Part shown: positions 16,685-44,313 of the stretch, piece by piece
Position numbering within the stretch: the stretch's first letter is position 1
Layout: each line of letters starts with the position of its first letter
NCBI GenBank assembly: GCA_021299715.1
Contig: JAJTEL010000002.1
Span: 1 to 64,000, forward strand
Direction of reading: 5' to 3'
Source of the DNA: Ilumatobacteraceae bacterium
GTDB taxonomy: Bacteria > Actinomycetota > Acidimicrobiia > Acidimicrobiales > Ilumatobacteraceae
Length of the DNA stretch: 64,000 bases
Made by a program: the position numbers and the translations under genes
Notes under the pieces: generated by a model
Told to the model about the DNA's origin: nothing
Seen by the model: the letters and a program-made list of their open reading frames with translations, nothing else
Databases searched by the model: none

Positions 16685-18352
16685 ATGACAATCTCTTCAA
16701 CACATTTGCGTGTGCGTTGGCTTGGCAAGGTTCCCTATACCGAAGCACTCGCAGTTCAAGAGTCTTTGTATCGACACGGGTCGGGCAATGTGTTGCTTTT
16801 GATGGAGCACCCACATGTGTTTACGTATGGACCATCTGCAGATCTTGAAAAGAATTTAAAGTGCAACCCCGCCGATGTGGGTGCCGATTTTGTGCAGGTA
16901 AAGCGCGGTGGCGACATTACGTATCACGGCCCCGGACAATTGGTGGGGTATCCCATTGTCAATCTGCAGCCAAAGCACGGTGCCGATGGCCCCGCCGATT
17001 CGGTTGCGTATGTGCATTCCGTCGAGCAGGTCATTATTAATTCGCTCCGCGAAGTGGGGCTTTCGTCTGCAGATCGCTTCCCCGGATATCCGGGTGTGTG
17101 GGTGAACGTAGAGGGAGACATTCCACGAAAGATTTGCGCCATCGGCGTACGGGTTGGTCGTCGCCGCACGATGCATGGTTTTGCTGTGAATGTTTCAACA
17201 GATCTTCACTACATGTCAACAAACATCGTTCCATGTGGGATTGCCGACTATCCCGTCACATCGCTTGAGGCAGAAGGCATCTCAGTGTCGATGAAGGAGT
17301 TCACTGAAGTTGTTTCGCGTCACGCTGCTGCTATGTGGGGCGACGGAATTGTGGAACGTCAAGACGTTGCGTGGAAACACACCCCCGATGATTTATCCGC
17401 GTTCTCTCGTGGTGAAGGGCCTGGTCAACCAGTTCGCATGTTGGGTCGACTTGCTCAAGCAGGGGTGGAAGAATCCATCTCATTGTCGGAACGAAAGCCC
17501 GATTGGATTCGCCCGCACGTGAAGCACGGCGAAGAAGTGCTCACGTTGAAAAAGACATTGCGAGATTTATCTCTGGTCACCGTGTGTGAAGAAGCCGGTT
17601 GTCCGAATTTGTCTGAATGTTGGAATGATGGCACCGCCACTTTCATGGTGTTGGGAGAACGGTGCACGCGCGCATGTGGTTTCTGCTTAGTAGATACGCA
17701 AAAACCCGAAGCACCAGATGCCAACGAGCCGTCGCACGTTGCCGAAGCTGTCGCCCGCATGGGATTGAAGTTTGCGGTTCTCACAATGGTGGCGCGTGAT
17801 GATTTAGCCGATGAGGGAATGGGTCATGTTGCACAATGCATTCAGGCCATTCGTGCACGTGATGAATCGGTGCAAGTAGAGACTCTTATCTCCGACGCGC
17901 GTGGCACTGCATCGCTTGATGTGTTAATCAATGCGCGACCCGATGTGTTCAACCACAACGTGGAAACTGTTCCGCGATTACAGCGCGCTGTACGCCCAAG
18001 CGCCGGATACGCACGAAGCTTGTCTGTGTTGGCGCGTGGCAAAGCGGCCGGTCTCACAGTGAAGTCTGGCCTCATTGTGGGCATGGGCGAGACAGACGAC
18101 GAAATTGTTGGAGTGCTGGCCGACCTTGCTGACCTTGGTGTCGACATTGTGACTATTGGGCAATATTTGCGACCGACCACCAATCATCTACCCGTTGCGC
18201 GGTGGGTAGAACCTGCTGTGTTCGAGATGTACAAGCGCGTGGGTGAAGAATTCGGAATTGGTCATGTGGAGTCCAGTCCACTTACTCGGTCTAGTTATCA
18301 CGCACGAGAGTCGGCAGAACACGCCGTACCTGTCACAATTGGTACTCGATGA
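16685..18352 (+). CDS. lipB/lipA: LipB-LipA fusion: octanoyltransferase plus lipoyl synthase
   Basis: One 555-residue frame joins the two steps of lipoate synthesis. Residues 1 to about 235 are LipB, moving octanoyl from acyl carrier protein to the target lysine: R-G-G-D-I-T-Y-H-G-P-G-Q at 74-85, Lys149 (R-K-I-C-A-I-G) and Cys184 (V-P-C-G-I), the acyl-thioester residue. After a linker of about 30 residues, 265-555 is LipA, the radical-SAM sulfur inserter: auxiliary-cluster Cys301, Cys306, Cys312, radical-SAM Cys327, Cys331, Cys334 (C-x3-C-x2-C), and the C-terminal R-S-S-Y (535-538) whose Ser ligates the auxiliary cluster. Cysteine spacing equals that of E. coli LipA. lipB and lipA are usually separate genes. 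No internal stop or frameshift exists. The next gene overlaps by 4 nt. Confidence 0.95.
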   Translation: MTISSTHLRVRWLGKVPYTEALAVQESLYRHGSGNVLLLMEHPHVFTYGPSADLEKNLKCNPADVGADFVQVKRGGDITYHGPGQLVGYPIVNLQPKHGADGPADSVAYVHSVEQVIINSLREVGLSSADRFPGYPGVWVNVEGDIPRKICAIGVRVGRRRTMHGFAVNVSTDLHYMSTNIVPCGIADYPVTSLEAEGISVSMKEFTEVVSRHAAAMWGDGIVERQDVAWKHTPDDLSAFSRGEGPGQPVRMLGRLAQAGVEESISLSERKPDWIRPHVKHGEEVLTLKKTLRDLSLVTVCEEAGCPNLSECWNDGTATFMVLGERCTRACGFCLVDTQKPEAPDANEPSHVAEAVARMGLKFAVLTMVARDDLADEGMGHVAQCIQAIRARDESVQVETLISDARGTASLDVLINARPDVFNHNVETVPRLQRAVRPSAGYARSLSVLARGKAAGLTVKSGLIVGMGETDDEIVGVLADLADLGVDIVTIGQYLRPTTNHLPVARWVEPAVFEMYKRVGEEFGIGHVESSPLTRSSYHARESAEHAVPVTIGTR

Positions 18353-19477: not shown

Positions 19478-20212
19478 GTGATCAAACTCGACGCAGCGAC
19501 AGTTCTTCTTCAATGGGCCACAGGTGGTTTGTTTTTCCTGTGGTTCACCACGCGCAAGCACGAAATGGGTGCCGGATACGGATGGCTTCTTCGTGGGTCT
19601 TTCTTGGTACTGGCCGCAGGCGCTGCCGCTGCTGGCTTTGCCACTCATACGGTGATGGCGCGCGAGGTGGCATCTATCGCGGTTGCTGTTGTCAGCGTGT
19701 TGACTCTTCGCCGAAAGAATGCTTCATGGGACCTTGTAGCACCACTGATTGGTGTGATCGGACTCGTTATTGCTGCGTTCGACGCAGCAAGCGGAACAGG
19801 CGACACCGTGGTGAGTTTGTTGCGCATTTTGGTGGGCACCGCATTCCTTGGTGCCGTGAGTGATGCCATGTTGCTTGGTCACTGGTACTTGGTGCAACCA
19901 GGACTACCGCGGTCAATTCTTGGAGAACTTGTGACTGCGCTCCGATGGATTACGCCTTTTGAAATTGTTGTCATGTTGTTGCCCACCGGAATGGTGAGTG
20001 TTATCAACGGATCAATTGACGATGGATGGGGCGGCATGCTCGGGTGGTTCTGGATTGCATGTGGAATTACCACCATTGTTCTTACCGAAGTCACACGCGC
20101 TGCTCTGCGTGAGCGCAGTTATTCGGCTGTTATGGCGGCAACAGGTTTGCTGTACTTGGCAATTCTCACTGCGTTTGGCACAGACCTTGTGGCCCGCGCA
20201 GTACTTGCCTAG
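19478..20212 (+). CDS. Multi-spanning membrane protein of unknown function
   Basis: A 244-residue protein beginning at GTG 19478. Hydropathy by eye gives about seven membrane spans: near 8-24, 34-52, 58-74, 83-99, 111-128, 155-176 and 188-240 (two). Notable polar residues inside the membrane region are H-W-Y-L-V-Q-P near residue 134 and R-x-I-T-P-F-E near 154. I do not recognise the family; it resembles uncharacterised actinobacterial membrane proteins. It is 13 nt downstream of the M24 peptidase and probably co-transcribed. It is convergent with the PPOX gene, with a 4-nt overlap of stop regions. Confidence 0.65.
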   Translation: MIKLDAATVLLQWATGGLFFLWFTTRKHEMGAGYGWLLRGSFLVLAAGAAAAGFATHTVMAREVASIAVAVVSVLTLRRKNASWDLVAPLIGVIGLVIAAFDAASGTGDTVVSLLRILVGTAFLGAVSDAMLLGHWYLVQPGLPRSILGELVTALRWITPFEIVVMLLPTGMVSVINGSIDDGWGGMLGWFWIACGITTIVLTEVTRAALRERSYSAVMAATGLLYLAILTAFGTDLVARAVLA

Positions 20213-20643
20213 AACTTCGAATAGTCCACGGTGAACCAACGCTCGGGCGTTGTCGATATACGCATCGACTCCCCGTCGTCTTCTCCGTCACCTCTCTCGA
20301 CGTATTTGTCGCCTTCCTTCACGCCCAGGTAGCGGTGGGCCATAGGGCGACTGTGTAGTTCCTTATCTGCGGTTGAGATAGTTGCTGCTCCTTCAATGGA
20401 CACGTATTTGTACGGCAGCGATTCTGATTGTGCGCACAAGCTAAATCGCATCGACTTTTGAAGCAGGCGACCTTTCACCGAGTCGAGCGATGTGAGGAAC
20501 CACAATTCGCCTCCTGGCTCGTAGATGTACCAAACGGGAACCGTCAGCGGTGGGCCATCTGGGCGCTCAATTGCCAGCACCCCCACGTGGAGGTCGGCGA
20601 GAAACTGCTCTCGTTCTTCTGGTGTCATTGAAAGCGTGCCCAT
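20209..20643 (-). CDS. PPOX-class (pyridoxamine-oxidase-like) flavin/F420-binding protein
   Basis: A 144-residue split-barrel protein. The start M-G-T-L-S-M-T-P-E-E-R at 20643 is fixed by AGGAG 4 nt upstream; longer in-frame starts run into the divergent acyl-CoA dehydrogenase. The pattern F-L-A-D-x-H-V-G-V-L-A-I, P-L-T-V-P-V-W-Y, W-F-L-T-S-x-D-S-V-K-G-R-L-L is that of the PPOX/F420-dependent oxidoreductase group, where the basic K-G-R contacts the cofactor phosphate. The C-terminal W-F-T-V-D-Y-S-K-F is typical. Cofactor (FMN or F420) and substrate are not determined. Confidence 0.8.
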   Translation of the reverse strand: MGTLSMTPEEREQFLADLHVGVLAIERPDGPPLTVPVWYIYEPGGELWFLTSLDSVKGRLLQKSMRFSLCAQSESLPYKYVSIEGAATISTADKELHSRPMAHRYLGVKEGDKYVERGDGEDDGESMRISTTPERWFTVDYSKF

Positions 20644-20748
20644 GGTTCTCCTTAGTGTTCGCCTGTGTGATGGACAGGAGTTGTCAGGTGTTTCTGAGAG
20701 TAGTCGGCTGAAGTTGGGCTCTACTTCAGTCTGTGAATAGCCAACGCC

Positions 20749-21918: not shown

Positions 21919-21922
21919 TGCT

Positions 21923-23101
21923 CTAGCCAATGACGCCGCGGGCCCGAAGATCGGCGGTGTCGTGACCAAGCGCCCCAATAATCTCGTCGGTATGCGCACC
22001 TTTTCGTGGTGCGTGGTGACCAACAATGGCCGGTGTTGCGCTGAAACGCGGCGCCGGCCGCACCTCGCGAATAGTCCCTGCATCAGGATGCTCTCGAACG
22101 ACAAATGTTTCGTTGTGGACGATCTGTGGGTCGTCAATCACGCTGTGTAAGTCATTCATTCCGCCAGCGGGAACATCGTGTTCTCGTGCTCCTTGGAGGA
22201 AAGTTTCCAACGGCATGTTTGCGGCTAATTCACGAACAATCTTCCTGTATGCGTCTCCATTTTGTGATCGCAAAGTGGACGATGCAAAACGTGGATCGTC
22301 GGCAAGCTCTGGTTGACCAAGTGCTGCGCAATAGCCGCGAAATTCAGATTCCGTCACAATTGACACCGCCGCGTAGCCGTCTTTAAATGTGACGGGAACG
22401 TAATTTGCCGAGATAGTGGGAAGTCGCATGACATCGTCGTCGAGAAGTGCCACATCCATCGCACAGTCTGGCCACGTAAATGCAACGGCAGCATCAAGCA
22501 TGGACAAGTTGATGTGTTGGCCCGTTGCGCCGCGCTCACGAGCGAAGAGGGCAGCGGTAATTGCTTGTGCTGCCGTATACGCAGTGACTTTGTCACAGAT
22601 GAGATGGCGAAACAATGCAGGCTTACCCGTGACAGGGTCTGTTTGCACACTGGCTAAACCGGATGCGGCTTGAATGACATTGTCATAGACGCGGCGTTTC
22701 GCGCTTGGGCCATCTTCTCCAAATCCGGCGATAGAGACATACACAAGATTTGGGTTGATGCGTGCGGCATCGTCGTATCCGAAGCCCAGACGATCCATTG
22801 CACCAGGTCGGAAATTCTGAATGAGAACATCGGCAGTTGAAATGAGTTCGCGAAGAAGCGATGCACCTTCATCCTCTTTGAGGTTAAGAACAATGGACTT
22901 CTTTCCTCGGTTATGAAGGGCATATAACCCTGTAACACCGTTCTTCTGGGTGCCCAGGTGACGCATCATGTCGCCCATTCCGGGTGATTCAATCTTGATA
23001 ACTTCGGCACCTTGATCGGCCAGCATCATTCCGGCGAGTGGACCAGAAATCATGGTGGCAAGGTCGAGAACTCTGATTCCAGAGAGGGGACCATGTGTCA
23101 T
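21923..23101 (-). CDS. Type III CoA transferase (CaiB/BaiF family)
   Basis: A 392-residue family III CoA transferase that moves CoA between carboxylic acids. The N-terminus is L-S-G-I-R-V-L-D-L-A-T-M-I-S-G-P, followed by D-Q-G-A-E-V-I-K-I-E and N-R-G-K-K-S-I-V-L-N-L. The conserved active-site Asp lies in the Y-V-S-I-A-G-F-G-E-D-G region and downstream helices. I use the ATG at 23099-23101, which overlaps the amidase stop by 4 nt; ten more codons upstream are possible but lack family support. Donor and acceptor acids are unknown. It is in an operon with the amidase. Confidence 0.92.
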   Translation of the reverse strand: MTHGPLSGIRVLDLATMISGPLAGMMLADQGAEVIKIESPGMGDMMRHLGTQKNGVTGLYALHNRGKKSIVLNLKEDEGASLLRELISTADVLIQNFRPGAMDRLGFGYDDAARINPNLVYVSIAGFGEDGPSAKRRVYDNVIQAASGLASVQTDPVTGKPALFRHLICDKVTAYTAAQAITAALFARERGATGQHINLSMLDAAVAFTWPDCAMDVALLDDDVMRLPTISANYVPVTFKDGYAAVSIVTESEFRGYCAALGQPELADDPRFASSTLRSQNGDAYRKIVRELAANMPLETFLQGAREHDVPAGGMNDLHSVIDDPQIVHNETFVVREHPDAGTIREVRPAPRFSATPAIVGHHAPRKGAHTDEIIGALGHDTADLRARGVIG

Positions 23102-24492
23102 TGAGGTACTCCTTGTGCGGTGAGAGGCCATGGGCGTTCGCGTTCTAAGACGTGTGCGAGTTCAAGCAGAACTTGTTCAGAAAAATGTCGTCCGATGATT
23201 TGCAGACCAACAGGCAAACCATCAACAAAACCGGCAGGAACTGAGATGCCGGGGTTGCCATGCAGGTTGCACGGGAACGTGAGCTGACCATTATTGCCAG
23301 CACCCGCCTTAATGCCGCCGAACACACTAGGAAGTGGTCCTTCTGCATCGAAGGCAACATCGGGGTTTGTCGCTGCAATCACAATGTCAACGTCATTAAA
23401 GATTTCTGCCATGCGTGTATTGACTGCAGCACGACGGTCTTCAATTTTGGCGCGCGCTTCTGCTGAATACAGACCGGCGGTGTATTCAAGTCCGGCACGC
23501 ATTTCTGGTGTGAGCACATCGGCACACTGCGGCCAATGATCTTTTAGTGCTTCAGCAATTTCCAACATGCCGCTGATAGACCACGCAGCACCCATACGTG
23601 GCAGCGACGTGTCAACACCGTCTACTCGCCGAAGCCCTGCCTTCTTAATGAGGAAGTCGGCGCTTTCTAGTAACACTTCCCACATGGCCGGCGACACCAC
23701 GGCACCACCCCAATTTTCTACGATGGCAACTTTCAATCCGCTGACATCGATAGTGCCGAGGCCCGCTTCCCATCCACCAACGCGGGGAAGACTAAGCGGG
23801 TCGTGCGCGTCGTGGCCGTTGCATGTGTCAAACCAGCGAGCGGTATCGCGCACACTGCGTGACACGCAGCCGACAGTCACAGTGAGGTTTCCATACGCAG
23901 CACCGGGGCCGCGCGGAATGCGTCCGTACGTTGACTTCAAGCCAACAAGTCCAGTGAATCCAGCGGGAATTCGAATTGATCCACCGCCATCGCCGGCAGT
24001 TGCGAGAGTGAACAGTCCACCCGCAACTCCAGCAGCGCTTCCACCCGATGATCCACCTGGTGTGCGCGATGCGTTCCACGGATTCTTTGTTGCACCATTA
24101 AGAACTGTGCGAGTGAGATTGACTCCGCCGAATTCACTTGCAGTGGTAAGGCCAAATGCCACAGCACCACCTTGTTGTGTGATGCGTTCTACGTGGATAC
24201 TCGTTTTTGTAGCGATGCGATCAGAAAACGGAACGGATGCTTCGGTATCTGGCCATCCCTTCACCGGGTCGAGTTCTTTAATACCTAATGGCACACCACC
24301 AAATGGGAGTGTGATGTCTGCGTTGCTCGCACGTTCAAGTGCGCCATCGGTGTCAACAAAAGAGATGGCGTTCAAGGAACTTTTTGCAACAGCGTCCAAC
24401 GTGGCTTGCATTTCTTCTTTGGGGGAACGCCGTCCAGCTCGGAATTCTTCTACGAGAGAGATTGCGTCTCCCTGCCATGGTGTTTCGCTCAT
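23098..24492 (-). CDS. Amidase signature family protein
   Basis: A 464-residue amidase of the Ser-cisSer-Lys class. Lys72 (P-L-G-I-K-E-L), the cis-Ser in T-P-G-G-S-S-G-G-S-A (146-152) and nucleophile Ser172 (G-D-G-G-G-S-I-R-I-P) are all present. The flanking T-K-N-P-W-N-A-S-R is typical. Without GatB/GatC neighbours it is more likely a free amidase or aryl-amide hydrolase than GatA. The start ATG is preceded by TAGGTT at 6 nt. It heads an operon with the CoA transferase, suggesting amide hydrolysis followed by CoA activation of the released acid; that link is inference. Confidence 0.93.
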   Translation of the reverse strand: MSETPWQGDAISLVEEFRAGRRSPKEEMQATLDAVAKSSLNAISFVDTDGALERASNADITLPFGGVPLGIKELDPVKGWPDTEASVPFSDRIATKTSIHVERITQQGGAVAFGLTTASEFGGVNLTRTVLNGATKNPWNASRTPGGSSGGSAAGVAGGLFTLATAGDGGGSIRIPAGFTGLVGLKSTYGRIPRGPGAAYGNLTVTVGCVSRSVRDTARWFDTCNGHDAHDPLSLPRVGGWEAGLGTIDVSGLKVAIVENWGGAVVSPAMWEVLLESADFLIKKAGLRRVDGVDTSLPRMGAAWSISGMLEIAEALKDHWPQCADVLTPEMRAGLEYTAGLYSAEARAKIEDRRAAVNTRMAEIFNDVDIVIAATNPDVAFDAEGPLPSVFGGIKAGAGNNGQLTFPCNLHGNPGISVPAGFVDGLPVGLQIIGRHFSEQVLLELAHVLERERPWPLTAQGVPQ

Positions 24493-30085: not shown

Positions 30086-30106
30086 GTGACAAAACAAGGG
30101 GGGCCA

Positions 30107-31237
30107 ATGGTTGCAGTTCAAGGAAAAGTTCAGTCTGGCTTCGAAGGTGTCAGCGAAGCATTCGCTGCCAACTTTGCCAACGACTTTGAAGTAGGCGCAT
30201 CTGTCGCAGTCGTGCATAAGGGTGAGCTTGTGGTGGACATCTGGGGTGGTCATGCCGATATCGAACGGACTGCTCCATGGCAGGGCGACACCATTGTCAA
30301 TGTGTGGTCCACAACGAAGACCATGATGTTTCTCACACTTCTCACGCTCGCAGATAGAGGAGAAATCTCACTCTCAGACCCAGTGCACAAGTATTGGCCG
30401 GAGTTCAAGACAAACGGCAAAGAGTCGGTTGAAATTCGTCATCTCATGGCTCACACCGCTGGACTCTCCGGCTGGGACGAGCCAATGACGGAGCAAGACC
30501 TGCATGACCATAACAAGTGCGCCTCGCTGCTCGCTACGCAGGCACCGTGGTGGCAACCAGGGTCACAGTCGGGCTATCACGCGATTTCACAGGGGTATCT
30601 AATTGGTGAAGTCGTCAGGCGTGTCACGGGACAGTCGCTGGGTTTATTTTTTCAGCAGAATTTTGCCGAACCGCTGGGCGCTGATTTCCACATCGGCACG
30701 GATGCCCAGCACGATCATCGCGTGTCTGCGGTCATCCCCAATGATTCTGCAGTGACGTCCACCATGGACCCCACGGGTGTTGCTGCCCGCACGTTTTCGA
30801 ATCCGATGATGAATGCACGCATGGCGCTTACAGAGGCTTGGCGTCGTTGCGAGAGCCCCGCAGCTAATGGTCACGGCAACGCTCGTTCCGTTGCTCAACT
30901 GCAATCCATCATCTCCCACGGCGGTGAAGCAATGGGCACGCGGTTCCTGTCCGCGTCGGGCGTCGAAGCACTCTTCGCAGAGCAAGCCAGTGGGGTTGAT
31001 CTTGTGCTTGGTGTGCCAATGAAGTTCGGCATGGGTTACGGGCTCGTTTCCGAATACAGCCCGATCAGTCCGAATGCACGTGCTTGTTTCTGGGGTGGTT
31101 GGGGTGGCTCGCTTGTCGTGAACGATCTCGATGCAGAACTTACTTTCGCCTACGTCATGAATCGCATGGGCGATGGAACAGTGGGGGACATGCGCGCTGC
31201 TGGACCTCTCATGGCCACTTTTGGTGCCATCGCCTGA
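30107..31237 (+). CDS. Beta-lactamase-family serine hydrolase (EstB-like esterase type)
   Basis: A 376-residue class-C beta-lactamase fold protein. The S-x-x-K motif is S-T-T-K at 68-71, the tyrosine motif is S-G-Y-H-A (Tyr157), and W-G-G-W-G-G-S stands near the C-terminal strand where the K/H-T-G motif would be. This pattern fits carboxylesterases of the EstB/LACT-like group rather than true beta-lactamases. There is no signal peptide. A strong AAGGGGGG precedes the ATG at 30107. Its last codons and stop lie inside the first copy of a 55-bp repeat shared with the metH end, so an insertion has occurred immediately downstream. Confidence 0.88.
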   Translation: MVAVQGKVQSGFEGVSEAFAANFANDFEVGASVAVVHKGELVVDIWGGHADIERTAPWQGDTIVNVWSTTKTMMFLTLLTLADRGEISLSDPVHKYWPEFKTNGKESVEIRHLMAHTAGLSGWDEPMTEQDLHDHNKCASLLATQAPWWQPGSQSGYHAISQGYLIGEVVRRVTGQSLGLFFQQNFAEPLGADFHIGTDAQHDHRVSAVIPNDSAVTSTMDPTGVAARTFSNPMMNARMALTEAWRRCESPAANGHGNARSVAQLQSIISHGGEAMGTRFLSASGVEALFAEQASGVDLVLGVPMKFGMGYGLVSEYSPISPNARACFWGGWGGSLVVNDLDAELTFAYVMNRMGDGTVGDMRAAGPLMATFGAIA

Positions 31238-31283
31238 TTAGGTGCTCTAGTCGCGGGCGACGAAGTGCTTGGCTTTGGGGTGG
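31229..31283. repeat. 55-bp direct repeat, copy 1
   Basis: Matches 32613-32667 over 55 bp with one mismatch (G at 31267, A at 32651). Copy 1 contains the stop codon of the serine hydrolase followed by a dead copy of the last 37 bp of metH. Flanking sequence diverges at once on both sides. Together the copies bracket a 1329-bp segment. Confidence 0.97.
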
Positions 31284-31313
31284 CGTTGTCTCGGTCTCTG
31301 GCCAATAGAAATA

Positions 31314-32600
31314 TCAATGTTGGTTGTTGAGTTCTGCCGCGAACTTTGTCTCGGAAGTTACGTAACGAGACCCGAATCTTCGGTGGCAGTATTCACCGAC
31401 AGCTATCAGCGCTGCTGCGTAGATGCATGCAATCATCCATGTGGGGATGCCGAGATTCACTAGAAGATGGCCAAAGAGGTAGACGACAATGAACACCCAG
31501 GACACGAGGAACAACGGTGGAAAGAAGAAAGACATGAAGACGAGTATCAATCCAACGGGGGCCACTACGAGTAATGCCCATACAACTGACATATAAGAAC
31601 GCCTGCGAGAAATCCTAAGGTGCTTGCGTTGCGCCGTGGTTAGATGTTCTTTGTTGTCGGCGGCAACGATGGCTTCCTCATGAAACTTGACGGCCCAACT
31701 TCTGAAATTCTCGCGTGCGATGGAAGCCTGAGCCTTCTGCGCCTGTTTGAGAGACTTGGCTGACTCGCGAGCGAGTTTTTCCTGTTCTTGTCGTCGAAGA
31801 CGTTCTGCGTTTGCAGCGGCTTCCTTCTCTTGCGCTCTCTTTTTGACAAGTTGTTCCCGTTCGTTTCGCTTTGCTTCCTCCAAGAGTCGGCGAGCAACTT
31901 CTGCCCTCGCGGCTGACTCTTCGGCAGCACGAGCAGTTTCGATTTTTTCTTGGGATCTTTTTTTCTGTCTAAGTTCGGCAGCACGAGCAGTTTCGATTTT
32001 TTCTTGGGATTTTTTCTTCTGTCGTAATTTGGTTGAGTACCCGCGAAAAATTGCCATAACATCCGAGACTTCTCTAGATAGAGGTGGTGGATTTGGGTGG
32101 CTCGAACTATGTCGCGCTTTCTTTGAACGTTCAAAGTCTTTCTCGGAAATCGAGGCTCGTTGTTCGGGCATCAAATCCCAGTAGTCGAGCAGGCCGTCGA
32201 ACAAGTCTTCCCATCTTCTGAGAAGGTCTTGACGTTGGCGTCGGGTAGCAAACTTCTCCTGAGACCACTCGGACTGCAACCGATTCCAAAGTCTGTCAAA
32301 GCGGTCGCGACCGAGGATGATCTCGTTCAGGCGTCTCAGGATGGCTGAGTGCCCAGAGACATCCCACTGGTCGATGGTTGGATCGTAATGAGCAATTGTG
32401 TTGCGCAAGTCTCGAAGCTCGCTCGCGAGGAGGTCTTGTGAATCTAGGAACCTAAGGCAAGCGATGCGACGTTCTGTTTCGAGTTCGTTTAACGGATCTA
32501 CTGACGATTGATTGCTGATGCTCAGCCACACTTTCTGGCGTTCAAGAATTGCCCAGAGTTCAAGGAACTCATGCTTGGCATTAACACTTTCTCTCCCCAT
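31314..32600 (-). CDS. HEPN-like, coiled-coil, membrane-anchored accessory protein
   Basis: A 428-residue protein I cannot match to a named family. Residues 1-150 are helical and contain L-R-D-L-R-N-T-I-A-H (62-71); Arg66-x4-His71 fits the Rx4-6H motif of HEPN ribonucleases. Residues 150-190 are polar. Residues 191-295 form a highly charged coiled coil rich in K, E, R and A, with an 18-residue unit repeated in tandem at 192-227. Residues 337-403 contain two or three hydrophobic spans (about 337-360, 362-384, 386-403). The tail is short and basic. The order suggests a nuclease-like or sensor head on a stalk anchored in the inner membrane. It lies in the inserted element, 30 nt after metH on the same strand, with TATTCT 7 nt before its ATG. 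A defence role is a hypothesis. Confidence 0.7.
   Translation of the reverse strand: MGRESVNAKHEFLELWAILERQKVWLSISNQSSVDPLNELETERRIACLRFLDSQDLLASELRDLRNTIAHYDPTIDQWDVSGHSAILRRLNEIILGRDRFDRLWNRLQSEWSQEKFATRRQRQDLLRRWEDLFDGLLDYWDLMPEQRASISEKDFERSKKARHSSSHPNPPPLSREVSDVMAIFRGYSTKLRQKKKSQEKIETARAAELRQKKRSQEKIETARAAEESAARAEVARRLLEEAKRNEREQLVKKRAQEKEAAANAERLRRQEQEKLARESAKSLKQAQKAQASIARENFRSWAVKFHEEAIVAADNKEHLTTAQRKHLRISRRRSYMSVVWALLVVAPVGLILVFMSFFFPPLFLVSWVFIVVYLFGHLLVNLGIPTWMIACIYAAALIAVGEYCHRRFGSRYVTSETKFAAELNNQH
31921..32028 (-). repeat. 54-bp tandem duplication inside the coiled coil
   Basis: Two adjoining 54-bp units (31921-31974 and 31975-32028) differ at only a few bases and encode two near-identical 18-residue segments (L-R-Q-K-K-K/R-S-Q-E-K-I-E-T-A-R-A-A-E). 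The unit is in frame and lengthens the coiled coil by about 27 angstroms, so it is probably a recent duplication. Confidence 0.95.
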
Positions 32601-32607
32601 ATCCGCG

Positions 32608-32613
32608 AGAATA
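32608..32613 (-). promoter_or_regulatory. -10 box at the element/repeat junction
   Basis: TATTCT on the minus strand ends 7 nt before the ATG at 32600. Its first base is the last base of repeat copy 2, so the box is made by the junction. It fits the leaderless pattern used elsewhere in the window. Confidence 0.4.
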
Positions 32614-32667
32614 TCGCCTGATTAGGTGCTCTAGTCGCGGGCGACGAAGTACTTGGCTTTGGGGTGG
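32613..32667. repeat. 55-bp direct repeat, copy 2
   Basis: Contains the real last 37 bp and stop of metH (32631-32667) plus 18 bp beyond it. It matches 31229-31283 with one mismatch. Confidence 0.97.
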
Positions 32668-35600
32668 TGGCAAATAATCGCTGACGTTGTTTGCTCTGGT
32701 TGATACTGCCAACCAGTTTCTTCGCCCACTTCAATTCCCAGTCGGCCAGCTTCCAAGATGCGCGCGACAGTTGCGTTGTCTTCTAAGTCTGGGCAAGCGG
32801 GGTAGCCCCAGCTGTAGCGACCACCGCGGTATTGCTGACGGAATAAGCCTGCAAGTGATGGTCCATCTTGATCAACAAAGCCCCACTCGGTGCGAATGCG
32901 ATGGTGCCAGTATTCGGCAAGGGCTTCGGCCATCTCTACGCCAATGCCGTGCAACACCATGTAGTCGTTGTACTTGTTTTCAGCAAACAACTCCGCAGCT
33001 TTTTCGCTGACTGGTGAACCCATTGTCACGATGTGGAATGCGGCGTAATCCTTCTCGCCACTTTCCACGGAACGGAAGAAGTCGGCAATGCACAAGTACG
33101 GCGCCACTTTTTGACGTGGGTAGTGGAAGCGTGCTTGTTCAACAGTGCGTGTATCGTCTGTGTAGACCACTAGGTCATTGCCATCGGCGTTGACAGGGAA
33201 GTAGCCGTACACCACTTGCGGAACCAAGTATCCGCCAGCCTTTGCTGCAGCAAGTTGTTCGCGAAGCAACGGACGAATGCGGTCTTTGAATTCGGCATCG
33301 GTCTCGCCGTCGTTGGGGCGGTACTGCCATTGATTGCGGAACAACGCCGTTTCGTTAATGTATTCCGCAATTTCGTCAAGGCCAATACCTTTCACCACTT
33401 TCGTTCCAAGGAACGGTGGCTGGAACACGGGGTTGTCGGTTTCGGCTTCTGGTGAACGAGAAGGAATGGTGGACGGATCAACTTCTTCTTTGGCGGGGCG
33501 CTCAATAAGGCGAGTACCAAGAACGCGACCGAAGTCAGGGTCGTCTTTGCCGTTGCGCTTCATGTCCATCAACTTGTCCAACGTGGACAAGCCTTCGAAT
33601 GCATCTTTGCCGTAGAACACTCGACCCATGTACACCTTGCGCAGGTCTTGCTCTACATAGCTACGCGTGAGTGCTGCACCACCGAGGAGAACGGGAATCT
33701 CGCTGAGTTCTTGTTCGTTCAAAGTTTCAAGGTTTTCACGCATGATGATGGTGGACTTCACAAGAAGGCCGCTCATGCCCAGAGCGTCGGCTCCAACTTC
33801 TTTCACCTTGTCGATCATCTCTTGGATGCCAATCTTGATGCCAATGTTGTGCACTTCGTATCCGTTGTTGGTACAGATGATGTCCACCAGGTTTTTGCCA
33901 ATGTCGTGAACGTCGCCCTTCACGGTTGCGAGAACCAATTTGCCCTTCGCGCTGCTTTCACCGGTTTTCTCCATGAACTGCTCAAGGTGGGCAACAGCAG
34001 TCTTCATAGTCTCTGCGCTTTGTAGAACGAAGGGCAGCTGCATGCGGCCACTACCAAACAGTTCTCCAACTTCACGCATTCCGTCCAGCAGAATCTCGTT
34101 AATGATGTCGAGCGGAGCAATTCCTTGAGCACGCGCAACTTCAAGGTCGTCCACTAGGCCTTCGCGGTCGCCATCGATAATGCGTTGGCGCAGAATCTTT
34201 TCAATGGTCCAGTCGCTGCGGTCTTCTTTTACTGCAGCTACAGAGGATACGCCTGCAAACAATTCAAGGAGTTTTGTGAGTGGGTCGTAGCCATCAGCAC
34301 GGCGGTCATAAATAAGGTCTGTGCACACTTGAATTTGTTCTTCGGGAATGCGTGCAAGCGGAAGAATCTTCGACGCGTGAACAATTGCTGAATCCAGTCC
34401 GTGTTCGCGCGCCTCGTGCAAGAACACACTGTTCAGTACTTGGCGTGTTGCAGGGCTAAGACCAAAGCTGACATTAGATAAACCAAGCGTGGTGTACGCG
34501 CCAGGAATTTCGGTCTTGATGCGCTTAATGGCTTCCAGAGTGGCAATGCCATCTTTGCGCAGGTCTTCGTCACCGGTTCCAATAGGGAAGGTCAAGGCGT
34601 CAAAAATAAGGTCGCTTGCGTGAAGCCCGTATCGCCGAGTGGCAATGTCGTGAAGTCGGTGAGCAACTTCCATCTTCCATTCCACGTCGCGCGCCTGTCC
34701 ACGTTCGTCAATCAGCAAACAAATAACGGCGGCGCCGTAGTCACGCGCAAGTGAGAACACGCGGTCGAGTCGACTGCCTGGTTCTTCGCCATCTTCAAGG
34801 TTGGCAGAGTTCAGAATGCATCGCCCACCAGCGTGAACAAGACCAGCTTCCATGACTTGCGGTTCGGTGGAGTCGAGAACCAACGGAACGCTTGCTTGTG
34901 TGGCGAAGCGCGATGCAATTTCGTGCATATCAACTGTGCCGTCGCGACCGACGTAGTCAACACACACGTCCAACACGTGTGAGCCTTCACGAATTTGTTC
35001 AGTTGCCATTTTGAGGCAGGTGTCCCAGTCTTCGCGCAACATCGCTTCGCGGAAGGCTTTTGATCCGTTTGCATTTGTGCGCTCACCAATAATGAGGAAA
35101 CTGTTGTCTTGTTCGAGCGGCACAGGGGAGTACAGCGATGTCACGCTTGGCTCGTCTTCTGGTGCGCGTTTCTTCACTGGCACGGCATGCACTGCGTTAC
35201 ACACTTGGCGTAGGTGTTCGGGAGTTGTTCCGCAGCAGCCACCAACAATGGTGATGCCAAGGTCTGTCACGTGGTGAGCGTGGTATTCGGCAAGTTGTTC
35301 GGGTGTGAGGTCGTAGTGTGTGCGGCCATCAACGACACTAGGTAAACCAGCGTTGGGAAGAACGCTGATAGGAATGTGTGAGTGCTCGCTGAGATAACGC
35401 AAGTGTTCTTGCATTTCAGCAGGACCAGTGGCGCAGTTAATGCCAATGACATCTGGCTTCATAGAAATGAGTGCTGAATACGCAGCACCAATTTCTGTTC
35501 CTACCAACATGCGACCTGTGGTTTCCATAGTGACTTGCACCTGGATGGGAAGTTCGCGCCCGCATTCTTTCATTGCAATGCGACATGCCTGCATTGCAGC

Positions 35601-36110
35601 TTTGATTTGCAGCAAGTCCATGCATGTTTCAATAAGGAAAAGATCGCAACCACCGTCAATGAGTCCGCGCGCTTGCTCTACATATGAATCGCGTAACTCG
35701 TAGAAACCAATGTGACCAAGGCTTGGCAACTTGGTGCCTGGGCCCATGCTTCCTGCTACGTAACGAGGGCGTCCGTCTGATTCAAAGCGGTCGGCCACGC
35801 GTCGAGCAATGGCAGCAGCGGCAACGTTCAGTTCGTATGCCCTTTCTGGAATGTCGTATTCGGTGAGCACCGTGGAGAAACTGCCGAAACTGGCGGTCTC
35901 AATCGCGTCGACGCCCGCCTCCAAAAAAGCGGTGTGCATGGCTTCAATGACGTCTGGTCGAGTGATGCACAACATCTCGTTACAGCCCTCTAGCGAGGCG
36001 CCGCCAAAGTCATCGGCAACAAGGTCGAGGTCTTGTACGAAAGTGCCGAATGCACCATCAAAAACGATGACTCGTTCGCGGATGGCTTCTGTATAGGGCT
36101 GGCGACTCAT
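32631..36110 (-). CDS. metH: Cobalamin-dependent methionine synthase
   Basis: A 1159-residue four-module enzyme that methylates homocysteine with methyl-tetrahydrofolate through cobalamin. The homocysteine/zinc module occupies about 1-320, with its zinc cysteines in I-N-C-A-T-G (about 226) and G-G-C-C-G-T-T (about 290). A pterin-binding barrel spans about 340-600. The cobalamin module carries D-V-H-D-I-G-K-N near 730, whose His is the lower ligand. The C-terminal AdoMet reactivation module runs from about 880. The start ATG has TAGCGT 9 nt upstream. It is divergent from a cobalamin adenosyltransferase, which fits shared B12 use. Its 3' end is the target of the insertion at 31229-32667. Confidence 0.97.
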   Translation of the reverse strand: MSRQPYTEAIRERVIVFDGAFGTFVQDLDLVADDFGGASLEGCNEMLCITRPDVIEAMHTAFLEAGVDAIETASFGSFSTVLTEYDIPERAYELNVAAAAIARRVADRFESDGRPRYVAGSMGPGTKLPSLGHIGFYELRDSYVEQARGLIDGGCDLFLIETCMDLLQIKAAMQACRIAMKECGRELPIQVQVTMETTGRMLVGTEIGAAYSALISMKPDVIGINCATGPAEMQEHLRYLSEHSHIPISVLPNAGLPSVVDGRTHYDLTPEQLAEYHAHHVTDLGITIVGGCCGTTPEHLRQVCNAVHAVPVKKRAPEDEPSVTSLYSPVPLEQDNSFLIIGERTNANGSKAFREAMLREDWDTCLKMATEQIREGSHVLDVCVDYVGRDGTVDMHEIASRFATQASVPLVLDSTEPQVMEAGLVHAGGRCILNSANLEDGEEPGSRLDRVFSLARDYGAAVICLLIDERGQARDVEWKMEVAHRLHDIATRRYGLHASDLIFDALTFPIGTGDEDLRKDGIATLEAIKRIKTEIPGAYTTLGLSNVSFGLSPATRQVLNSVFLHEAREHGLDSAIVHASKILPLARIPEEQIQVCTDLIYDRRADGYDPLTKLLELFAGVSSVAAVKEDRSDWTIEKILRQRIIDGDREGLVDDLEVARAQGIAPLDIINEILLDGMREVGELFGSGRMQLPFVLQSAETMKTAVAHLEQFMEKTGESSAKGKLVLATVKGDVHDIGKNLVDIICTNNGYEVHNIGIKIGIQEMIDKVKEVGADALGMSGLLVKSTIIMRENLETLNEQELSEIPVLLGGAALTRSYVEQDLRKVYMGRVFYGKDAFEGLSTLDKLMDMKRNGKDDPDFGRVLGTRLIERPAKEEVDPSTIPSRSPEAETDNPVFQPPFLGTKVVKGIGLDEIAEYINETALFRNQWQYRPNDGETDAEFKDRIRPLLREQLAAAKAGGYLVPQVVYGYFPVNADGNDLVVYTDDTRTVEQARFHYPRQKVAPYLCIADFFRSVESGEKDYAAFHIVTMGSPVSEKAAELFAENKYNDYMVLHGIGVEMAEALAEYWHHRIRTEWGFVDQDGPSLAGLFRQQYRGGRYSWGYPACPDLEDNATVARILEAGRLGIEVGEETGWQYQPEQTTSAIICHHPKAKYFVARD

Positions 36111-42681: not shown

Positions 42682-44297
42682 TGCTGCAGGTGCACAACCT
42701 CACCGTTGAGGTGGGTGGCCGAAATGTGGTGGAAGGCGCAACGTTCACCATCATGGCGCGCGACAAAGTGGGCATTGTGGGGCGCAACGGTGCTGGCAAA
42801 ACGTCCATGTTCAAAGTCTTGGGTGGAGACAACGAACCCGCTGGTGGCAAAGTAACGCGCAGCGGTGCCTATGGCTATTTGTCTCAAGACCCACGCACCA
42901 CTCAAGAGGCCGAGAGGCGTTCGGCAATTTCACACATTCTGAGCGGGCGCAGTATTGACGAAGATCTGGAACGACTTGAGAAATTGCGCGTTGCAATGGA
43001 AGAAAATGCGGACGAACGCAACGTGTCGCGCTTCATCAAGGCAGAAGACGCCTTCAACCTAAAGGGCGGGTACTCGGCAGAGAGCGAAGCCCGCAGTATT
43101 GCGGCAGGTCTTGGGTTGAAAGCAGATCGATTGGATTTATCTCTTGGTGTGTTGTCGGGTGGCGAGCGACGCCGAGTAGAACTTGCGCGCATTTTGTTTG
43201 CGGGTAGCGACATGTTGTTGTTAGATGAACCAACAAACCACTTGGACGTTGATGCAAAGACGTGGCTTCTGAATTTCTTGCGCAACTACAAGGGCGCGTT
43301 GTTGGTTATTAGCCACGACCTTGAATTGCTAGACGAAGCAATTACTCGTGTGTTGCATCTTGACCGTCCGAATGAAGACGACATTGGCACGGTGTATGAA
43401 TATCGCGGTACATATAGCCAGTACAAGCGTTCGCGTGCAGAGGACGAAGCGCGCGCCGAAAAGAAAGCAATGATGCAGGCCAAAGAAGTTGCGCGCTTGC
43501 AAGAAGTGGTGGACAGATTTGGTGCGAAGGCAACAAAAGCGACAATGGCACACAGCATTGAGAAGCGAATTGCGCGCATTGAATCTGAATCCACAGGCGT
43601 GCGAAAGAAAGATCGTGTTCTTACGGTGAAGTTTCCCGACCCGCCGCAGAGTGGCGTCACTGTGGTGACAACGCGTGGCCTCAGTAAGGGATACGGCGGC
43701 CCACCTGTGTTTGAAGATGTGTCGTTCGATTTAGGTCGTGGCGAACGATTGCTGGTGCTTGGTTTGAATGGCGCTGGAAAGACTTCGCTGTTACGCATTC
43801 TTGCGGGGGCAACGCCGGCCAACATTGGCGATTTTGAGTGGGGATACCAAGTCAGCGTTGGGTATTTTGCTCAAGAACACGACACGCTTGATCCGCATCA
43901 GTCGTTGTTGTGGCACATGCGACGAGAATTACCCGTTGGATCACCGCTCACCGAGACACAACTTCGCGCACTGTTGGGAATGTTCGGGTTGCAAGGCGAG
44001 AAGGTCTTTCAAGAGTCCGGTTCGCTCTCTGGTGGAGAGAAGACCAAGCTTGCATTGGCCATGTTGATGGTGGGGCGCAACAACGTGCTGTTGTTAGACG
44101 AACCCACGAACAACTTGGACCCACAGAGTCGCGAGGCGGTGGCGGGCGCATTAGAGAACTGGAAGGGTTCCATCATTATGGTGAGCCACGACGAAGAGTT
44201 CGTGCAGCGTTTGAATCCCACGAAAGTCATTCTTATGCCAGACGGTCAAGTTGATTACTTCAGTCCTGAATGGTTGGAACTGGTCAGCCTCTCCTAG
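42681..44297 (+). CDS. ABC-F family ATPase (ribosome-associated type)
   Basis: A 538-residue protein with two ATPase domains and no membrane span. Domain 1: G-R-N-G-A-G-K-T-S, L-S-G-G-E-R-R-R, L-L-D-E-P-T-N-H-L-D. Domain 2: G-L-N-G-A-G-K-T-S, L-S-G-G-E-K-T-K, L-L-D-E-P-T-N-N-L-D. The charged linker between them (about 245-305) is the P-site tRNA interaction motif region of ABC-F factors. Both catalytic Glu are present. Such proteins act on stalled ribosomes or give ribosome-protection antibiotic resistance; which applies is unknown. It overlaps the lipoprotein stop. Confidence 0.92.
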   Translation: MLQVHNLTVEVGGRNVVEGATFTIMARDKVGIVGRNGAGKTSMFKVLGGDNEPAGGKVTRSGAYGYLSQDPRTTQEAERRSAISHILSGRSIDEDLERLEKLRVAMEENADERNVSRFIKAEDAFNLKGGYSAESEARSIAAGLGLKADRLDLSLGVLSGGERRRVELARILFAGSDMLLLDEPTNHLDVDAKTWLLNFLRNYKGALLVISHDLELLDEAITRVLHLDRPNEDDIGTVYEYRGTYSQYKRSRAEDEARAEKKAMMQAKEVARLQEVVDRFGAKATKATMAHSIEKRIARIESESTGVRKKDRVLTVKFPDPPQSGVTVVTTRGLSKGYGGPPVFEDVSFDLGRGERLLVLGLNGAGKTSLLRILAGATPANIGDFEWGYQVSVGYFAQEHDTLDPHQSLLWHMRRELPVGSPLTETQLRALLGMFGLQGEKVFQESGSLSGGEKTKLALAMLMVGRNNVLLLDEPTNNLDPQSREAVAGALENWKGSIIMVSHDEEFVQRLNPTKVILMPDGQVDYFSPEWLELVSLS

Positions 44298-44313
44298 AGA
44301 GGGTTGCCCCTGA

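Follow-up and report, generated by a model that had tools for sequence, protein, structure and literature searches.

A copied two-gene junction flanks a single, probably foreign gene beside metH in an Ilumatobacteraceae genome

How can a single gene come to stand between two neighbours in a bacterial chromosome and leave both of them whole? The question is raised by a locus in a 64,000-nucleotide stretch of DNA (the window; positions 1 to 64,000 of contig JAJTEL010000002.1, assembly GCA_021299715.1) from an Ilumatobacteraceae bacterium, in which one gene, hereafter the orphan gene, lies between a serine hydrolase gene and metH and is bracketed by two direct repeats of 55 base pairs (bp). An earlier note on this locus read the 55 bp as the metH 3' end and proposed an insertion with target duplication, with two possible routes: a template-switch insertion, or integration at a conserved gene end of a small element that was mobilised in trans. 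The coordinates were confirmed: the copies differ by one mismatch, start 1384 bp apart and enclose 1329 bp, of which the open reading frame (ORF) of the orphan gene fills 1287 bp. We favour, at about an even chance of being right, a one-off capture of a foreign single gene by recombinase-independent, template-switch-like recombination with a step back of 55 bp; template switching is thus the best remaining reading of those proposed, short of a demonstration.

Judged from the ORF coordinates, each copy joins the last 9 bp of the hydrolase gene to the last 37 bp of metH across a spacer of 9 bp (Table 1). The repeat is a copy of the whole convergent hydrolase/metH junction, more than the metH end alone, which refines the earlier description. 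metH is convergent with the hydrolase gene and codirectional with the orphan gene. The longest exact word common to the two repeat neighbourhoods has 38 bases (55 if one mismatch is allowed), whereas for 200 random position pairs on the same contig, with 160-base neighbourhoods, the longest common word had a median of 7 and a maximum of 10 bases; the repeat pair exceeds chance expectation. The insert has no terminal inverted repeats (ungapped, 8-25 bp, at least 80% identity, starting at most 15 bases from the ends), the 55-bp core contains inverted repeats of 5 bp only, and the window gave no Rfam or tRNA matches. Since 55 is a common k-mer size of assemblers, an assembly artefact in which a graph loop was opened wrongly was considered. 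The two copies differ by one base and hence hold no single shared 55-mer, and the insert carries an intact reading frame of 428 amino acids. Tests of 23 of the 32 contig ends for overlaps gave one long overlap, between the 3' end of contig C6 and the 5' end of contig C12, and its length of 114 bp differs from 55. The 5' end of C6 has a match of 33 bp inside contig C14. We regard an artefact as very improbable.

The same junction occurs without the insert in G007, a sibling genome of the same genus. On its contig C110 (12,617 bp), the hydrolase side is 95% and the metH side 90% identical to the flanks in the window, and the two matches overlap by exactly 55 bp, leaving one copy and no insert. 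Such an empty site with a single copy was what the earlier note had named as the test of an insertion. Synteny extends further, to an upstream ABC transporter gene with 98.5% protein identity between the window and G007. The locus combines an insertion-type structure, an empty site in a relative, an exact local duplication of 55 bp and intact neighbours.

The junction was sought more widely. A hydrolase query that included the left 55-bp copy was matched in 22 of the 32 genomes of the genus. In the 12 genus hydrolase loci that were cut out, metH adjoins the hydrolase gene twice, in the genome carrying the window (G000) and in G007; one of the other ten, that of G004, ends at a contig edge, and for the remaining genus matches, outside this set, hydrolase and metH coordinates lie on different contigs. 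Adjacency was also seen in one of the 80 hydrolase loci retained, out of 136, from the genome_contigs collection, again the G007 record. Further carriers of the junction are possible, since many assemblies are fragmented. The rarity of this adjacency in the genus, together with a repeat that straddles two gene ends, weakens the idea of integration at a conserved gene end. A 36-bp match to the core in another genome, G006, lay inside an unrelated gene and was rejected.

The copies themselves bear on the origin of the duplication. When the two copies in the window are set against that of G007, four of the 55 positions vary, and at three of these both window copies agree against G007: the hydrolase stop codon (TGA versus TAA in G007), one spacer base, and the metH stop codon (TAG versus TAA). 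The fourth is the mismatch between the window copies, where the left copy has G, which would give His for Tyr (codon read by eye), against A in the right copy and in G007; most simply, the G would be a change derived in the dead metH end. The window copies differ from each other at 1 of 55 positions and from G007 at 4 and 3. Because both carry lineage-specific bases, the second copy was most likely made from the junction of the window's own lineage, and the repeat looks like a local target duplication, not a foreign attachment site (attP). If all three copies were equally old, the probability of at least three of the four changes falling on the G007 branch would be P = 0.11, which speaks mildly for a duplication later than the split of G000 and G007. 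The capture probably postdates that split.

Table 1. Coordinates in the window of the repeat copies, the inserted segment, its gene and the neighbouring genes
Feature	Position	Strand	Remarks
Left 55-bp copy	31229-31283		living hydrolase 3' end 31229-31237; spacer 31238-31246; dead metH 3' end 31247-31283
Right 55-bp copy	32613-32667		dead hydrolase 3' end 32613-32621; spacer 32622-32630; living metH 3' end 32631-32667
Insert, 1329 bp	31284-32612		absent at the G007 empty site
Orphan gene, 428 amino acids	31314-32600	minus	from the ORF list
Internal tandem duplication, 54-bp, copies 91% identical	31920-32027		in the long-helix part of the orphan gene
Serine hydrolase gene	30086-31237	plus	Pfam Beta-lactamase family; intact neighbour
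metH, cobalamin-dependent methionine synthase	32631-36110	minus	intact neighbour

The orphan gene is atypical in codon usage: 5 of 398 sampled ORFs scored at or below it, and 14 of 398 did so when E, K, Q, R and A were masked. On contig C10 alone it was the lowest of 246, the insert being counted among these. The GC content of the insert is 50.2%, compared with a mean of 53.0% (standard deviation 2.1) for 596 pieces of 1329 bp. The full-length protein found no match in any of the 31 other genomes of the genus, several of which are incomplete. Searches of 100 relatives returned the protein itself and weak matches in G053 (E 3.2e-4) and G057 (E 7.3e-4); among 395 genomes of the class they returned itself, G053 and a weak match in G758 (E 1.4e-4), and the N-terminal part, searched against 396 genomes of the phylum, returned itself and G053 only. 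The G057 match, opposite a permease-like ORF, gave no BLASTP alignment with the orphan protein under low-complexity filtering and was discarded. The G053 stretch aligns with residues 63-157 (31% of 95 columns) in the frame of an amidohydrolase-like ORF (by eye); as the E-values apply to one genome at a time and the search ran over about a hundred, it is probably a chance match. No homologues were found in genome_contigs (86 stretches) or viral_contigs (3 stretches), nor among phages and plasmids at the sensitivity used, and the PADLOC, PHROGs and NCBIfam models gave weak matches only, including a PADLOC Cas1 match (E 0.35) that was disregarded. The collections searched appear to hold no convincing homologue of the orphan gene, which is probably of foreign origin.

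In the capture that we favour, replication or repair copying would run rightwards through the hydrolase/metH junction into metH, switch to a foreign strand, for example one taken up via a competence channel (a ComEC-type family is present in both G000 and G007), and copy 1.33 kb of it. It would then return to the chromosome 55 nucleotides upstream of its exit, within the last hydrolase codons, so that the junction would be written twice. The insertion may have been tolerated because the duplication keeps both gene ends whole. The captured gene would be promoterless and transcribed from outside: the orphan gene follows metH on the same strand at a distance of 30 bp, and a simple sigma-70 scan found no promoter-like site between the two, so its transcription is likely to occur by read-through from metH. 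The near-identical repeats would also permit scarless loss of the insert. We infer that the join was made without a dedicated recombinase, and the donor joints, the time and the agent are inferred in the same way.

Several points weigh against such a capture. No microhomology with the host flanks is visible at the switch points. Deletion of host sequence is the usual outcome of homology-facilitated illegitimate recombination, and a step back of 55 bp without deletion departs from it. The GC content at third codon positions of the orphan gene is ordinary (rank 110 of 246); in view of this and of the overall GC content given above, the evidence for foreignness is moderate. The genome itself (1,907,092 bases) is fragmented into 16 contigs and 92.8% complete. 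The enzyme searches described below cover Ku, serine recombinases and tyrosine recombinases, and transposase families were not searched. Finally, G007 is the sole relative seen with the same junction, and the direction of the event consequently hangs on other arguments, namely codon usage, the absence of the gene elsewhere and the modest dating given above.

This last point bears on an alternative that makes the insert and its two repeats ancestral and has G007 losing the gene when the 55-bp repeats recombined with each other. Near-identical repeats can delete intervening DNA, and with one relative sharing the junction no outgroup fixes the direction. In the parts of the literature consulted, 10 of 11 repeat-bounded insertions or deletions (indels) of decidable direction were deletions (PMC3119063), and part of such variation is ascribed to inter-repeat recombination (PMC2884548). 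A loss in G007 would, however, leave the origin of the duplication unexplained, and it agrees poorly with a gene that is unmatched in the rest of the genus and atypical in codon usage, and with window copies that are closer to each other than either is to G007. We consider it decidedly improbable.

The second alternative is that a recombinase supplied in trans integrated a minimal element site-specifically, the 55 bp being the shared core of the attachment (att) sites. In its favour, the locus has the classic arrangement of an island, with metH intact and a dead metH end displaced. The insert, however, holds a single gene and no significant recombinase match. G000, G007, G002 and G006 have two tyrosine recombinases each. 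In G000 one is a XerD that exceeds the NCBIfam cut-off for XerD, and the other is XerC-like, with XerC as its best match at a score below the cut-off. They are 94% and 92% identical in G007, which has the empty site, and the integron integrase model (cut-off 265) gave them 131 and 118 bits. No serine recombinase was found in G000 or G007. The core spans the spacer and reaches into the hydrolase gene, and both copies are lineage-specific; agreement in the spacer and in the stop codon of the neighbouring gene would be unexpected for an attP from another lineage, although an element from the same population would still fit. A metH end was present at 27 of 29 distinct sites in relatives, and among the four best matches per site none of the 27 gave a further match to that end with an E-value under 0.008; at most sites the flanks were no longer than about 1.5 kb, and contig edges cut some of them short. 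No homologous element was found in the genome, viral, phage and plasmid collections. The small element mobilised in trans therefore received no positive support, and we hold this alternative to be unlikely, although it is the least improbable of those considered here.

A locus in another sibling genome, G002, bears on the same question. At about 55.3-60.7 kb of its contig C1 (L259:15298-20000 and L260:1-650), an intact gene that we take to be ybaK stands ahead of cargo genes and of two dead copies of the ybaK 3' end. The dead ends are 93/89% and 88% identical, and a similar sequence of about 20 bp precedes each. No integrase family match was found within the array, and the two tyrosine recombinases of G002 lie outside it. 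The arrangement resembles an array of insertions, of some age, that built up at a protein gene. Its intact target, cargo and two dead ends with the same preceding sequence favour integration in trans; the shared sequence of about 20 bp suggests a site-specific process at ybaK, and nothing alike is visible at metH. Repeated duplication of a gene end thus occurs in the genus and would fit a site-specific process, which is a further argument against one-off capture. It could also be that an integrase-free process operates across the genus and lands small cargo at protein-gene junctions, with tens of bases of target duplicated, the agent being an unknown enzyme or the Xer recombinases in trans; the target duplications would then measure 55 bp at metH and, in the older array at ybaK, as much as about 167 bp. 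We assign little probability to this process. If the ybaK array and the metH locus do share a mechanism, the genus holds a recombinase-free route of gene acquisition that can be tested.

Capture of a foreign fragment in a double-strand break offers another explanation of the exact duplication: the filling-in of staggered ends of 55 nucleotides, followed by end joining, would produce it without loss of host bases. No Ku was found in G000 or G007 at the sensitivity used, in genomes that are about 92-93% complete, so that its absence is unproven, and a stagger of 55 nucleotides is long. We regard this route as improbable.

The locus was also compared with known systems. Target duplications of DDE-type transposons are about 2-14 bp; here the duplication is 55 bp and terminal inverted repeats are lacking. 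Compared with integron cassettes, the 55 bp at metH are native host sequence. Islands at tRNA and tmRNA gene ends are known in which the target gene is regenerated and a displaced fragment marks the other end (Islander, PMC4383910, in the part consulted). The metH locus shares with such integrase-type islands the whole target gene and the displaced fragment marking the two ends; unlike them it has a single gene and no integrase of its own, and the repeat covers a lineage-specific junction of two genes, where an attP-attB identity would be confined to one conserved gene end. Closer are the repeat-flanked variable segments described in the consulted parts of PMC2884548 and PMC3119063, which are likewise strain-specific, bounded by direct repeats and represented by a single copy at the empty site. 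As expected of a repeat-flanked segment made by illegitimate recombination, the metH locus has a one-copy empty site in a relative and no dedicated recombinase was found, transposases lying outside the search. In those sources, 66 to 94% of the repeats are shorter than 30 bp (PMC2884548) and they are usually shorter than 20 bp (PMC3119063), whereas the repeat at metH has 55 bp, is a copy of a two-gene junction, and an insertion is favoured. Homology-facilitated illegitimate recombination, as far as the consulted parts of PMC2884548 and PMC3784515 describe it, also integrates foreign DNA without a recombinase, and a ComEC-type gene is present here; it differs in that the insert at metH has no visible homologous anchor and host sequence was duplicated. 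A narrow literature search located no report of the metH locus, none of a lone gene enclosed by copies of the junction between two genes, and nothing on long target duplications with end joining or on integrase-free template-switch insertion. With its empty site, exact borders and two whole neighbours, the locus cleanly records the natural entry of a single, apparently foreign gene into a 1.9 Mb genome with no mobile-element part attached. It could reveal by what route orphan genes arrive in genomes where the recombinases found were of the XerC/D type alone, with none of the serine family.

The predicted product gives a lead to its function. The N-terminal part is predicted to be all-helical, with an RNTIAH motif at residues 66-71; it is followed by one long predicted helix (residues 175-316), a coiled coil by eye, and by a hydrophobic C-terminal region at about residues 337-403. 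With residues 1-145 as the query, the Pfam family HEPN_Swt1 (PF18731) matched at 17.6 bits (E 0.0049; cut-off 27.5), and it was not listed when the whole protein was used. RNTIAH fits the Rx4-6H motif with polar N after R that is described for the HEPN superfamily (PMC3710099, in the part consulted). In 5000 shuffles of residues 1-180, RNxxxH arose by chance in 2.0% and the looser R[NDH]x2-4H in 24%. Structure models of the whole protein and of the N-terminal part were both too poor for fold assignment; the model examined for a HEPN fold had a mean predicted local distance difference test score of 64.8, its search gave no match that reached E 0.001, and none of the 50 rows listed named a HEPN protein. 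The product thus shares with Swt1-like HEPN proteins (PMC3710099, PF18731) an Rx4-6H-type motif in a helical N-terminal part, but it differs from them in scoring below the Pfam cut-off, in having no significant structure match, and in its long helix and hydrophobic C-terminus. That the best sequence match of the N-terminal stretch is the amidohydrolase-like stretch of G053 counts against a HEPN assignment. As a weak lead, the product may be a membrane-anchored HEPN-like protein and possibly belongs to a defence or conflict gene. The internal tandem duplication of 54 bp adds 18 residues to the long helix.

Finally, other repeat pairs and indels were surveyed. In G000, 805,730 bases (42%) were scanned for direct repeats of at least 24 bp and at least 85% identity, 250-12,000 bp apart; repetitive starts beyond 555,000 of contig C10 were left out and seeds occurring more than 30 times were skipped. 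Nine pairs were found, five of them within one open frame, and among the other four only the metH pair is at least 95% identical, so that no second near-identical pair brackets a gene in the scanned 42%. One of the pairs, 50 bp long and 86% identical, on contig C9 (L055:16319-16368 and 17069-17118), brackets an oxygenase-like gene; a recent insertion was rejected there, since this gene and the next one lie on the same contig in 14 of the 32 genus genomes. A 23-bp pair was set aside as well, as it sits in two neighbouring TldD/TldE-like genes (by eye). The scan of G002, G006 and G007 (1,016,148 bases, at least 90% identity) gave 12 pairs: six in one frame, three in the ybaK array and one in two dehydrogenase-like paralogues (by eye), with two further pairs besides. 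The comparison of G000 with G007 covered those contigs of G007, 14 out of 60 fetched, that could be placed on the sampled bases of G000 once matches below 80% identity were dropped. It showed five indels of at least 500 bp; flanking repeats longer than 10 bp occur at the metH insert only, and those of the other four measure 6-7 bp. Two of these indels lie close to the metH insert: a CoA-transferase-like and a pyridoxamine-oxidase-like gene (by eye), at 21919-23123 and 20211-20743, are absent from the matching G007 contig, with flanking repeats of at most 7 bp. G007, in turn, carries about 2.2 kb (L242:321-2521) without a counterpart at about 44296-44307 of the window, flanked by a repeat of at most 6 bp.

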